This document shows, in pieces, positions 30,916 to 36,090 of a stretch of DNA of 64,000 nt. Under the pieces are notes generated by a model that saw nothing but the letters and a program-made list of their open reading frames with translations, made no database searches and was not told where the DNA came from. How positions within the stretch are numbered: the first letter of the stretch is position 1; each line of letters starts with the position of its first letter. Source of the DNA: Thiohalophilus sp. (lineage in GTDB: Bacteria; Pseudomonadota; Gammaproteobacteria; UBA6429; Thiohalophilaceae); assembly GCF_034522235.1 (NCBI RefSeq), contig NZ_JAXHLN010000003.1, forward strand, positions 868,001 to 932,000. Reading direction: 5' to 3'. Made by a program: the position numbers and the translations under genes.

Positions 30916-31842
30916 ATGTCGACCTTTATTACCTATAAACTCGATGGTGTCGTTCGCAAGATTCCGTGCAAGTCGGTGCTGACGCTCGGGCGAGACATGA
31001 ACAGCGACGTGGTGTTGCCGGATCTGCACGCCTCGCGCAATCACGCCATGATTCGCTGCATCGGCAGCGGCGATTATTATCTGATCGACGGTGGCAGCTC
31101 CAACGGCAGTTTTGTCAATCGCCAGCGGGTGGCCATGCCCAGGCTGCTGAAAAACGGCGATCGGATTACCATTGGCCGGTTCGAAATGCTGTTTGAACAA
31201 AGTAAAAAAGAGACCGGCGAATTCAACACGCTCTCCCTGCAAGACACCGTCATCTCCGACAGTCCGGACATCAAGCAGATCACCGTGCTGGTGGCCGATA
31301 TCCGGGGCTTTACCTCGCTCTCCGAACAGGTCGACATCCGTACCCTGACCAAGCTGATGAACCGCTGGTTTCATAATGTGAGTAACGCGATCTTCGACAA
31401 TGCCGGCACGGTGGACAAGTTTATCGGTGATTGCGTATTTGCCCGCTGGGAATCGGATGAGGATCAAAGCAAGACCTTAAAGCAGGCCCTGAGTGCCGCG
31501 TTACTGATCAACGGAATCACCCGGGAACTGAACAATATCTTCAGTGAACTACCGGAGCCGGTCAAAATTGGCGTCGGCATCAACACCGGGGCTGCCTCAA
31601 TGGGGATCGGTCATGACAATACGGCATTGGGTGACGCCGTGAATATCGCTTTTCGCCTGGAAAGTGCCACCAAGATCCTCGGTTCAGACATGGTGTTGAG
31701 TGAAACCGCTTACCGGCATTTGCCTGAATCGTTCCTCGAGGGCAAGACCCACCATTTACGTATCAAGGGTAAACGCGATCCCGTGCGGATCTGCAGCCTG
31801 GAGTTCAATGACGTCAAGCAGATCCTTGAGAAGATGAATTGA
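30916..31842 (+). CDS. FHA-domain adenylate cyclase (class III)
   Basis: Predicted to make cAMP from ATP. Residues 1-95 form an FHA phosphothreonine-binding domain (LGRD at 24-27, ASRNHA at 39-44, SSNGSFVN at 61-68). Residues about 118-300 form a class III cyclase with metal-binding D128 (VADIRGF) and D172 (DKFIGD). K168 and D240 fit adenine recognition, and N243 and R247 (GDAVNIAFRLES) the transition state, so the enzyme should be active. There is no membrane segment; the FHA domain implies control by a phosphorylated partner. A cyclic-nucleotide-binding scaffold protein is encoded 1.4 kb away at 33244-36090. Confidence 0.92.
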   Translation: MSTFITYKLDGVVRKIPCKSVLTLGRDMNSDVVLPDLHASRNHAMIRCIGSGDYYLIDGGSSNGSFVNRQRVAMPRLLKNGDRITIGRFEMLFEQSKKETGEFNTLSLQDTVISDSPDIKQITVLVADIRGFTSLSEQVDIRTLTKLMNRWFHNVSNAIFDNAGTVDKFIGDCVFARWESDEDQSKTLKQALSAALLINGITRELNNIFSELPEPVKIGVGINTGAASMGIGHDNTALGDAVNIAFRLESATKILGSDMVLSETAYRHLPESFLEGKTHHLRIKGKRDPVRICSLEFNDVKQILEKMN

Positions 31843-31876
31843 GTTCTAAGTTCTAAGTTCTAAGTTCTAAGTTCTA
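31842..31876. repeat. Heptanucleotide tandem repeat (AGTTCTA)x5
   Basis: Five perfect AGTTCTA units start on the last base of the cyclase stop codon and run directly into the palindrome that follows. Same period as the arrays at 19756-19783 and 21280-21330, with a different unit. Confidence 0.9.
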
Positions 31877-31910
31877 AGTTCTGAGTACTAAGTACTTAGT
31901 ACTCAGAACT
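31877..31910. repeat. Perfect 34-bp palindrome between convergent genes
   Basis: The sequence from AGTTCTGAGTACTAAGT through its exact reverse complement ACTTAGTACTCAGAACT has no loop. It lies 13 bp from the stop of the convergent gene at 31924. It could be a bidirectional terminator, but neither side has a T-run; cruciform extrusion or a protein site are alternatives. Confidence 0.9.
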
Positions 31911-33175: not shown

Positions 33176-33243
33176 AAAGGGCTTGGGCTCACCGCGATAC
33201 GGGTGGAGTCGCGTGGGATGGTCGGTAAGGGGTGGTCGGCTCC

Positions 33244-36090
33244 TCAGGGCGAAACGATCGCTTTCCACTCGTCCAGCAGATTCTCAAAACGTTCACGCAG
33301 ACCGGCTTGCATATTGTTTTCATGTTTCTGTCCGTTTTGTTCTTTTTCTTCGTCGTGATTTTTCTCATCCCGATTGTTGATCGGGGCGACAGAAGCTTTG
33401 GCAGTGGTACTTTTACCGGGTTCAGACTGGGCGATCAGGTGCTCGTTAAGCAGTTCCGGATGTAAGAAGATGTAGACGCTGCCGCTGCCCAGGGCCAGCA
33501 ACAGGGTGGCAACCAGGGCAAAGGTATGGCGTTTCTTGCGCTGCTGTTGCTGACTGGCCTGTTGTTCGGCAAGCCGGGCATGCACGGCCTGGGTATTGAC
33601 CGGCTTGAAGACCGGCTTCTCCGCCTCCTCAATTTCAAAGGAGGGGAGTTCGTTTTTGGACGCATTGCCCCGCGAGTGGCGCTGATTGGCCTGTTCCGCC
33701 TCGATCTGTTCCGGGGTGACGGAGGGCTCCTTGAAGATGAATATATCCTCTTCCCCTTCGAGGATGACTCGCCCGTCCTCGCGTTTGATGGTGGCCCGGG
33801 TGATGGACAGCCCCTCGCCCCGTTGCCGATCTTCTTCATTCTGGCGCTGTTGCTCCGCCTGCTCCAGTTTCGCCTTGATCTCTTCGGCCATCCGCCGGGC
33901 GTGTTCCTGGCGCTGCATTTTGGCGTTATGAATCGCTTGTTGACGTCGCGCTTCGCGCTCGCGTTCCTGTTTTTGGACGGCGTTATCTTTGGCGCGAGCT
34001 ACGCGGGCCTGTTGCTCGGCTTGTGTTTTAGCATGGGCCTCGGCTTCACGACGGGCCTGTTGTTCGGCTTCCTCTTTGGCACGAGCCCGGGCCTCGCGTT
34101 GCGCCTGTAAGTCAGCGTCTTGTTTGGCCTCGGCCTGGCGTTGGGCTTCTTGCTGGGCACGGCTGGCGTGTTCCATCACTTGCTGGCGGGTTTGCTCCAT
34201 CTCCTGGCGCAGTTGTTCGGCCTCTTCCAGCGCCTTGCGCCGGATCTCTTCGGCTTCCTGTTCGGCGATGCGGGTGGTTTTCTCGGCCAGTTCCATGGCC
34301 CGGGCGCGGGCCTGTTCCAGCAGGCTGACCTGTTTCTGCCGTTCCGCTTGTTCGACTTTGGCCGCGCGCTGATTGACGGCCTGGCGGGCGCTTTCCAGTT
34401 CGGTGCGCAGTCGTTCGGCCTCGCTCTGGGCCTGTTGCCGGATGCTTTCGGCCTCCTTGCGCGCCTGTTCGATGGCTGCCTGGCGCTGGGCCTCTTTTTC
34501 CTGTTCTGCCTGACTGGATTGCTGTTCGAAGCGGCGGCGAGTCGCCTCCATTTCCTGTTTGAGTTGCTCGGCCTCTGCGCGCGCCTTGCGCCGGATCGCT
34601 TCGGCCTCCTTTTCGGCCTGCTGGCGGGAGCGTTCCGCGGCCTGGCTTGCTTCGGCGGCAATCTGCCTGGCGCGTTTCAGGGATTCATCCAGTGCCTGCT
34701 GTTTCTCTTCATTGGCCTGTTTGGCAGCCTGGATTTTACGCAATTCAGTTTCGGCCTGACGACGGGCCTGCTCGGCTTTTTCACGCGCGGCCTGTTCGGC
34801 CTGTTTGCCCTGTTGCTCGGTCAGGCGCTGGATCGCCTGTTCGGCCTGGTTTTTGGCCTGCTCGGCGCTGGCGGTTTGTTGGGCCAGTTGTTCCGCTTCC
34901 TGGCGGGCGGTGTCGGCTTCCTGGCTGATTTTGCGTGCCCGATCTTCGGCGGCCTGACGGGTTTTTTCCGCAGCAGCGGTCCGTTTACTGGCGGGGGCGG
35001 CAGTGACCGCGGCGCCCGACGCGTCGTTGCCGCCGGTCAGCTGGAAACTGGCGGCCTGCAGCCCGCCATCGAGTATGCCGCACTGAAAACCGTGCTGGGT
35101 GAGCAGGAAGGCGGCCGCGGCGCTCTGGGTCCCGTCGGCACTGGCCAGGATATATTCGCGTTCGGGATTCAGGCCCTCGAGTTTCAGACGCAGCATCGAC
35201 AGGGGAATGTTGATCGAGCCGTTTACGTGTTGATGATTGAATTCTTCGTGGGTGCGCACATCGATCAGCAGGGCGCCGCTGTCGAGTTTGGCGGCGGTGT
35301 CGTTTTCGGAAAAGCGGGTGATCAACGGCTCTGCGAGATAGGTGAGAAAGTCCGCTTTTTTCAGCCGCATCAGGACGCCGTCTTCCTGCATGGTGACGTT
35401 GGCGTTGCGTCGGCCATGGGTGATCAGGGCCTCTTCGCCAAAACCGTCGCCTTCGTGCAGTGTGGCCAGCGGAATCTCGCCGGCCTTGGGCGCGGGGCGC
35501 CGGGATACGGCGCAACTGCCGCTTTGCACAATGTAGTAATAGTCGTCCTTGTCACCCTGGCGCAGGATCACCTCGCCTTTTTGTGCCGGCAGCTCTTCCA
35601 TGCGCATCAGGATGGCCTGAATATTCTCGGTCGGCAGTTTGAGGAAAGCCCGGGATTGGAGGAAGCGCAGCATCCAGTCGGTCGTGTCGTCGCCCGAGAT
35701 CTCGGTGACCTCGAACTCATAGGCATCCAGCGGGGTGTCGTTGAGAATGATTTCAAGCAGTGCCGAATCGATACTGACGACGGTGATCGGCCCTTTGGCC
35801 CGGGCAGTGCCGGTATGCGGCTGGTGGTTGTCCAGCGGCTTGCGGGCCTCGGCATTCTTGGATTTGATGAGGCGGGCTTTTTTGTCGCCGTTGTGGCGGA
35901 GTTCGACCTGCCCGTGGATCAGATAAAGCGTGCGGTTGTCTTTCTCGCCTTCGCGGAACAGCACCCGGCCGGCCGGCAGATCCTCAACGGTCGCCTTGCT
36001 GACCAGCTCGCCGAGTTTGTCATGGGCGAGATTGCCCAGCGGTTCCAGGCCCTTGAGGAGGGTTTTATCGAGTTTGGTTTTGCTGGCCAT
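33244..36090 (-). CDS. Cyclic-nucleotide-binding / rhodanese / long coiled-coil membrane protein
   Basis: A 948-aa protein (ATG at 36090; 970 aa from an upstream start is less likely). Domains: a degenerate cNMP-binding domain (about 15-135); a second cNMP domain (140-255) whose phosphate-binding cassette GFGEEALITHGRRNA is intact at 216-230; a rhodanese domain (258-352) where the catalytic Cys loop reads SADGTQS, so sulfur transfer is unlikely. Then come an alanine-glutamate-arginine-rich coiled coil (about 370-755), a transmembrane helix (856-876) and a charged C-terminal tail that should lie in the periplasm. It probably links cAMP to a membrane-anchored filament or scaffold. An FHA-adenylate cyclase is nearby. 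Confidence 0.88.
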   Translation of the reverse strand: MASKTKLDKTLLKGLEPLGNLAHDKLGELVSKATVEDLPAGRVLFREGEKDNRTLYLIHGQVELRHNGDKKARLIKSKNAEARKPLDNHQPHTGTARAKGPITVVSIDSALLEIILNDTPLDAYEFEVTEISGDDTTDWMLRFLQSRAFLKLPTENIQAILMRMEELPAQKGEVILRQGDKDDYYYIVQSGSCAVSRRPAPKAGEIPLATLHEGDGFGEEALITHGRRNANVTMQEDGVLMRLKKADFLTYLAEPLITRFSENDTAAKLDSGALLIDVRTHEEFNHQHVNGSINIPLSMLRLKLEGLNPEREYILASADGTQSAAAAFLLTQHGFQCGILDGGLQAASFQLTGGNDASGAAVTAAPASKRTAAAEKTRQAAEDRARKISQEADTARQEAEQLAQQTASAEQAKNQAEQAIQRLTEQQGKQAEQAAREKAEQARRQAETELRKIQAAKQANEEKQQALDESLKRARQIAAEASQAAERSRQQAEKEAEAIRRKARAEAEQLKQEMEATRRRFEQQSSQAEQEKEAQRQAAIEQARKEAESIRQQAQSEAERLRTELESARQAVNQRAAKVEQAERQKQVSLLEQARARAMELAEKTTRIAEQEAEEIRRKALEEAEQLRQEMEQTRQQVMEHASRAQQEAQRQAEAKQDADLQAQREARARAKEEAEQQARREAEAHAKTQAEQQARVARAKDNAVQKQEREREARRQQAIHNAKMQRQEHARRMAEEIKAKLEQAEQQRQNEEDRQRGEGLSITRATIKREDGRVILEGEEDIFIFKEPSVTPEQIEAEQANQRHSRGNASKNELPSFEIEEAEKPVFKPVNTQAVHARLAEQQASQQQQRKKRHTFALVATLLLALGSGSVYIFLHPELLNEHLIAQSEPGKSTTAKASVAPINNRDEKNHDEEKEQNGQKHENNMQAGLRERFENLLDEWKAIVSP

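Follow-up and report, generated by a model that had tools for sequence, protein, structure and literature searches.

An FHA-domain adenylate cyclase and a membrane-anchored tandem cyclic-nucleotide-binding protein in a conserved gene cluster of Thiohalophilus: a possible local cAMP signalling unit

Thiohalophilus is a genus of sulfur-oxidising gammaproteobacteria. The genome of the Thiohalophilus sp. studied here comprises 3.06 Mb in three contigs, and a stretch of 64,000 nucleotides of it, called the window here, was analysed. At its centre lies a cluster of five genes, including those for an adenylate cyclase with an FHA domain (FHA-cyclase) and for a protein of 948 amino acids with two cyclic-nucleotide-binding (CNB) domains, called the scaffold here. 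An initial annotation, made from the sequence alone, had proposed that four of these genes form a module for cyclic AMP (cAMP) signalling. The four genes, for the cyclase, a helical protein, a NERD protein and the scaffold, were found at the places given, with their domains confirmed by Pfam. The DUF2786 gene, located 87 bp upstream of the cyclase gene on the same strand, had not been seen then and is added here as a member of the conserved unit. The features are as follows, in positions of the window.

30136..30828, + strand: DUF2786/DUF7168 protein, 230 amino acids (Pfam DUF7168 1.7e-26, DUF2786 7.2e-13)
30916..31842, + strand: FHA-cyclase, 308 amino acids (Pfam FHA 1.1e-18, Guanylate_cyc 1.7e-12)
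31924..32325, - strand: small helical protein, 133 amino acids (alignment of 17 orthologs; structure model)
32462..33175, + strand: membrane protein with a degenerate NERD domain (Pfam NERD 1.6e-08)
33244..36090, - strand: scaffold, 948 amino acids (Pfam cNMP_binding 5.4e-25 in two stretches, Rhodanese 1.8e-13)
35716..36033, - strand: scaffold CNB-1, about residues 20-125, without the FGE cassette
35326..35676, - strand: scaffold CNB-2, about residues 139-255, with the cassette FGEEALITHGRRNA at residues 217-230
35053..35295, - strand: scaffold rhodanese domain, residues 266-346, with Ser317 in place of the active-site Cys
33820..34992, - strand: charged helical region of the scaffold without proline, residues 367-757
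33463..33519, - strand: predicted membrane span of the scaffold, residues 858-876, with QRKKR just before it

The FHA-cyclase consists of an FHA domain (residues 23-87), a linker and a class III cyclase domain (residues 118-287), and is predicted from these domains to be a soluble enzyme that makes cAMP. The residues required in class III enzymes are present, i.e., the metal-binding aspartates D128 and D172, the substrate-binding lysine K168 and the transition-state residues N243 and R247, and all five are invariant in an alignment of 74 FHA-cyclases, 37 from the group of relatives and 37 from outside it. D240, which the initial annotation had also counted among the catalytic residues, does not belong there: although invariant, it has Pro as its counterpart in CyaC and Arg in CyaB. 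The base-specifying position is T236, which aligns with Thr in both these enzymes and is Thr or Ser across the family, in keeping with class IIIb adenylate cyclases. CyaC and CyaB (PDB 1wc1, 3r5g) are the closest solved structures for the cyclase domain and have the same catalytic fold and residues, but they carry other regulatory domains, and no CNB partner figures in the comparison.

The FHA domain, already recognised in the earlier reading, is well supported. Besides the Pfam match, the residues of its motifs (GR, SRxH and SxNG), i.e., R26, S40, R41, H43, S61, N63 and G64, are invariant in the 74 sequences. It matches GarA, OdhI and the FHA-GGDEF enzyme DgcB. In DgcB of Bdellovibrio, a Thr-containing tail of the protein can be bound by its own FHA domain, which controls the GGDEF cyclase (PMC6733907). 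DgcB resembles the enzyme studied here in the sequence of its FHA domain and in the N-terminal position of this domain, joined to a nucleotide cyclase. However, its GGDEF domain is not of class III and makes cyclic di-GMP, and its threonine is located in the N-terminal tail, whereas the candidate here, Thr111, is located in the linker. Thr111 is present in all 37 sequences of the group, and most other FHA-cyclases have a Thr or Ser at or beside this site, which makes it a candidate ligand of the FHA domain. Five kinase genes above the family cut-off are present in the host genome. One Ser/Thr kinase gene in this genome (G000:C3:1960303-1963765) lies ~2.3 kb from the gene for an FHA-domain protein and is a possible source of phosphothreonine. 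At locus L141, the FHA-cyclase gene adjoins genes for an FHA protein and a Ser/Thr kinase, and a similar FHA neighbour is found in L145 and L148.

The scaffold contains tandem CNB domains of which, as had been claimed, only the second has an intact phosphate-binding cassette. Both the Pfam matches and an alignment of 24 relatives bear this out. In the cassette of CNB-2, FGEEALITHGRRNA, none of the residues F, G, E, L, R, N and A varies among the 24 relatives, while the FGE of the cassette is absent from CNB-1 in all relatives aligned. The absence of the active-site Cys from the rhodanese domain was likewise noted earlier and is correct for this protein, but it cannot serve as a defining trait of the family. 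The Cys is kept in 20 of the 24 relatives, and Ser replaces it in the two Thiohalophilus genomes and also in L077 and L081; thus, the loss is lineage-specific and affects a minority only. Because the active-site Cys was lost there, rhodanese catalysis seems to be dispensable in several lineages.

Between the rhodanese domain and the membrane span, residues 367-788 contain no proline at all, and a single glycine is found between residues 367 and 757. The coiled coil of nearly 400 residues described previously is upheld as a long helix, ~390 residues of which are free of proline. However, its heptad pattern is only weakly marked (z 3.3 for this protein) and differs from relative to relative, so that it is more safely called a long charged helix that probably forms a coiled coil. 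The C-terminal membrane anchor is supported, as a predicted span near the end is found in every full-length relative of the family, with 45-212 residues beyond it. The head of the scaffold was modelled with a mean predicted local distance difference test (pLDDT) score of 85 and a predicted template modelling score of 0.57, and at the domain level it matches the tandem CNB domains of the protein kinases PKG and PKA. The template modelling scores of the whole head against PDB structures were low, owing to a different placement of the two CNB domains and to the low confidence of the model at residues 122-133; therefore, the arrangement of the domains is not used as evidence here.

PKG and the regulatory subunit of PKA are the best matches of the head in both sequence and fold, and they share with it the tandem CNB domains and the cassette motif. 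They differ from the scaffold, where CNB-1 has no cassette and the head is joined to a rhodanese domain, a rod and a membrane span. Also, no kinase gene was found in the conserved cluster and no kinase domain on the scaffold that could provide a PKA-type partner. The closer kin of the scaffold are gammaproteobacterial tandem-CNB-rhodanese proteins, a family of which it is a member and with which it shares the head domains. In contrast to the scaffold, short forms in this family lack the rod and the span, whilst many long forms elsewhere add a domain resembling formylglycine-generating enzyme after the span. Relatives of the latter kind, of about 1300-2000 amino acids, are encoded in other gammaproteobacterial families at L093 (6951-11345), L223, L225, L227, L237, L239 and L241. 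The formylglycine-generating-enzyme-like domain forms their end, as recognised by Pfam in L093, where it follows a predicted span, and by eye in the others. The host genome itself encodes two more tandem-CNB proteins of 355 and 366 amino acids, ~4 kb apart (C2:216691-222515; L091). The second of these bears a rhodanese part, and no class III cyclase gene is located nearby.

The two proteins encoded between the cyclase and the scaffold are of the kinds described before, i.e., a helical protein and a membrane protein with a degenerate NERD domain. The former is predicted to be a five-helix bundle (model pLDDT 89.8); it belongs to no known family and gave no match in the PDB below E 0.001. In the latter, the acidic residues and the Lys that mark the nuclease motif are not conserved among the orthologs, as judged by eye from the alignment. 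In Thiohalophilus, the gap between the NERD and scaffold genes is 68 bp. Genes for a TerB-like and a DUF2914 protein, which are located in this position in many relatives (e.g., L069:5660-6855), are missing there.

Genes for both the cyclase and the scaffold were found in nearly all of 37 genomes of the same family, and the unit of DUF2786, FHA-cyclase, helical, degenerate NERD and scaffold genes is kept in over 15 related genera. The gene order in these loci is NadA(-), DUF2786(+), FHA-cyclase(+), helical(-), NERD(+), often followed by TerB(+) and DUF2914(+), and scaffold(-). The location of the cyclase and scaffold genes on different strands, as already noted, is general: the two are convergent in all 25 loci where both gene calls are visible. 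Retention was counted by translated search, which is less tied to gene calling, over those loci that have room for the gene concerned. The DUF2786 gene was retained in 39/39 loci, the NERD gene in 37/37, the helical gene in 33/36 and the scaffold gene in 28/28. In contrast, the flanking genes were rarely kept, i.e., the hydrolase gene in 1/20 loci, the GltS-like gene in 1/16 and the CFA synthase gene in 5/24. Since the genes of the unit are kept while the flanking genes change, the proximity itself is conserved, and the cluster is a gene unit whose conservation stops abruptly at its borders. The initial annotation had relied on nearness alone; within the group, the support for a unit now goes beyond that.

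Pairings of cyclases with CNB proteins recur elsewhere. FHA-cyclases are also present in Lentisphaerae and Verrucomicrobia. In three Lentisphaerae loci, a gene for a protein with a single CNB domain ends 6-14 bp upstream of the FHA-cyclase gene on the same strand, and in three Verrucomicrobia loci, a gene for a CNB protein of 168-171 amino acids is convergent with it; the CNB domains were confirmed by Pfam in both cases. Thus, a CNB neighbour was found at 6 of 37 FHA-cyclase loci, representing two clades. This is far above the naive expectation (binomial P about 1e-6), but the value is a guide only, because related loci were treated as independent and the neighbours were picked by a motif pattern. 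Furthermore, five genomes of the family encode shorter CNB-CNB-rhodanese paralogs within a few kb of CHASE2 cyclases, probably at one inherited locus, and in another family (L090) such a paralog is encoded directly beside a CHASE2 cyclase. A CNB-CNB-rhodanese gene at L095:4196-7717 adjoins genes for a GAF-HD (HD-GYP-like) protein and an FHA-domain protein, without a cyclase gene.

Co-occurrence was determined in 230 gammaproteobacterial genomes, with a cut-off of E below 1e-60 for FHA-cyclases. CNB-rhodanese proteins were found in 109 of these genomes and FHA-cyclases in nine. All nine genomes with an FHA-cyclase also encode a CNB-rhodanese protein (Fisher P 0.001), and a class III cyclase of any kind was found in 100 of the 109 genomes with a CNB-rhodanese protein vs. 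51 of the 121 without (Fisher P 2e-16); neither ancestry nor genome size is corrected for in these tests. According to the initial annotation, its proposal would fall if scaffold and cyclase occurred independently in most genomes. This is half the case in the class: most genomes with a CNB-rhodanese protein (100 of 109) encode no FHA-cyclase, although every genome with an FHA-cyclase encodes a member of the family.

We consider the chances about even that the cluster encodes a conserved local cAMP signalling unit, in which a cyclase under FHA control would signal to CNB-2 on a rod tethered to the membrane. Here, cAMP would be made by the soluble class IIIb cyclase, with its activity set by the FHA domain. 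This domain would most likely bind a phosphothreonine of the cyclase's own linker (T111) or of a partner protein, which may be written by one of the Ser/Thr kinases of the host, and DgcB could serve as a working model for such control. CNB-2 would read the cAMP, while CNB-1 and the rhodanese domain may have structural or protein-binding roles. The scaffold is envisaged as a rod that its C-terminal span fixes in the inner membrane, and its output may consist of cAMP-dependent changes in the contacts of its head with other proteins of the cluster or with envelope machinery. Such a unit is supported by the retention of both genes in convergent orientation, the sharp edges of the cluster, the recurrence of cyclase/CNB pairs and the co-occurrence of CNB-rhodanese proteins with class III cyclases in the class. 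The sequences themselves show the domains, the intact catalytic and binding residues and the retention of the cluster, from which we infer catalysis, cAMP binding, the direct coupling of cyclase and scaffold, the phosphothreonine switch and the output.

Several observations weigh against such a unit. The scaffold family reaches far beyond the FHA-cyclase, which is absent from 100 of the 109 genomes that encode a CNB-rhodanese protein; outside the group, the pair is thus not an obligate one. The FHA-cyclases of other Gammaproteobacteria have no scaffold gene adjacent to them, and the convergent cyclase and scaffold genes do not form one operon. Many other CNB proteins in the host genome could read cAMP, and the CNB partners in Lentisphaerae lack the cassette Arg that those in Verrucomicrobia have kept.

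Some of these observations would fit a cluster that is kept for another shared function, exerted by the DUF2786, NERD, TerB and helical proteins. The cyclase would then supply the cAMP pool of the cell at large, which serves Crp-like regulators, and this pool would be read by the scaffold without any special link to this cyclase. The many CNB genes in the genome and the relatives of the scaffold that mostly live without an FHA-cyclase are in line with this explanation, which nevertheless seems unlikely to us, given that two of the five core genes encode a cyclase and a CNB protein and that other such pairs recur.

More improbable is that the scaffold is mainly an envelope tether to an energised complex of the TonB/ExbB/ExbD type, with a CNB domain that is structural or binds another ligand. 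In many relatives, a set of TPR, TPR, ExbB, ExbD, ExbD and TonB-like genes is found upstream of the scaffold gene on the same strand. In addition, the helix, rich in Ala, Glu, Gln, Lys and Arg, is reminiscent of other long linkers, e.g., TolA. However, this set is not found beside the scaffold gene in Thiohalophilus, where the scaffold is otherwise intact, and the Glu and Arg of the cassette are invariant. A mere slow rearrangement of genes in the family, as might be suggested by the retention of the metabolic gene NadA in 31/34 loci, is very improbable and mostly ruled out, since the genes just outside the unit were exchanged in most genera and the core survived the loss of NadA in L129, L130 and L133.

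The pairing of FHA-cyclase and scaffold looks like an undescribed variant of cAMP signalling with an unusual receptor. Literature searches on CNB with rhodanese, FHA with cyclase, CHASE2 with FecR and CyaD with FHA, which covered few subscription journals, yielded no description of the architecture seen here. The tandem-CNB-rhodanese family is present in about half of the sampled gammaproteobacterial genomes, and no paper on it came up in these searches. Bacterial cAMP is usually seen as a diffusible signal for transcription factors of the Crp type. If the local signalling unit proposed here exists, an FHA-cyclase with a membrane-anchored receptor would speak for a local action of cAMP in bacteria that does not involve transcription. 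A bolder possibility, which we regard as doubtful, is a dedicated cAMP microdomain, in which a phosphothreonine-controlled cyclase feeds a tethered, rod-like receptor that acts directly on envelope machinery and not on transcription. Such a microdomain would recall, in its principle, the anchored cAMP signalling of eukaryotes, and similar pairings would have arisen repeatedly in other bacteria.

Elsewhere in the window, at 25847-27433 on the + strand, a protein of 528 amino acids is encoded in which, as judged by eye from the translation, two CDGSH-type iron-sulfur motifs are joined to an apparent FMN domain of the glutamate-synthase type.

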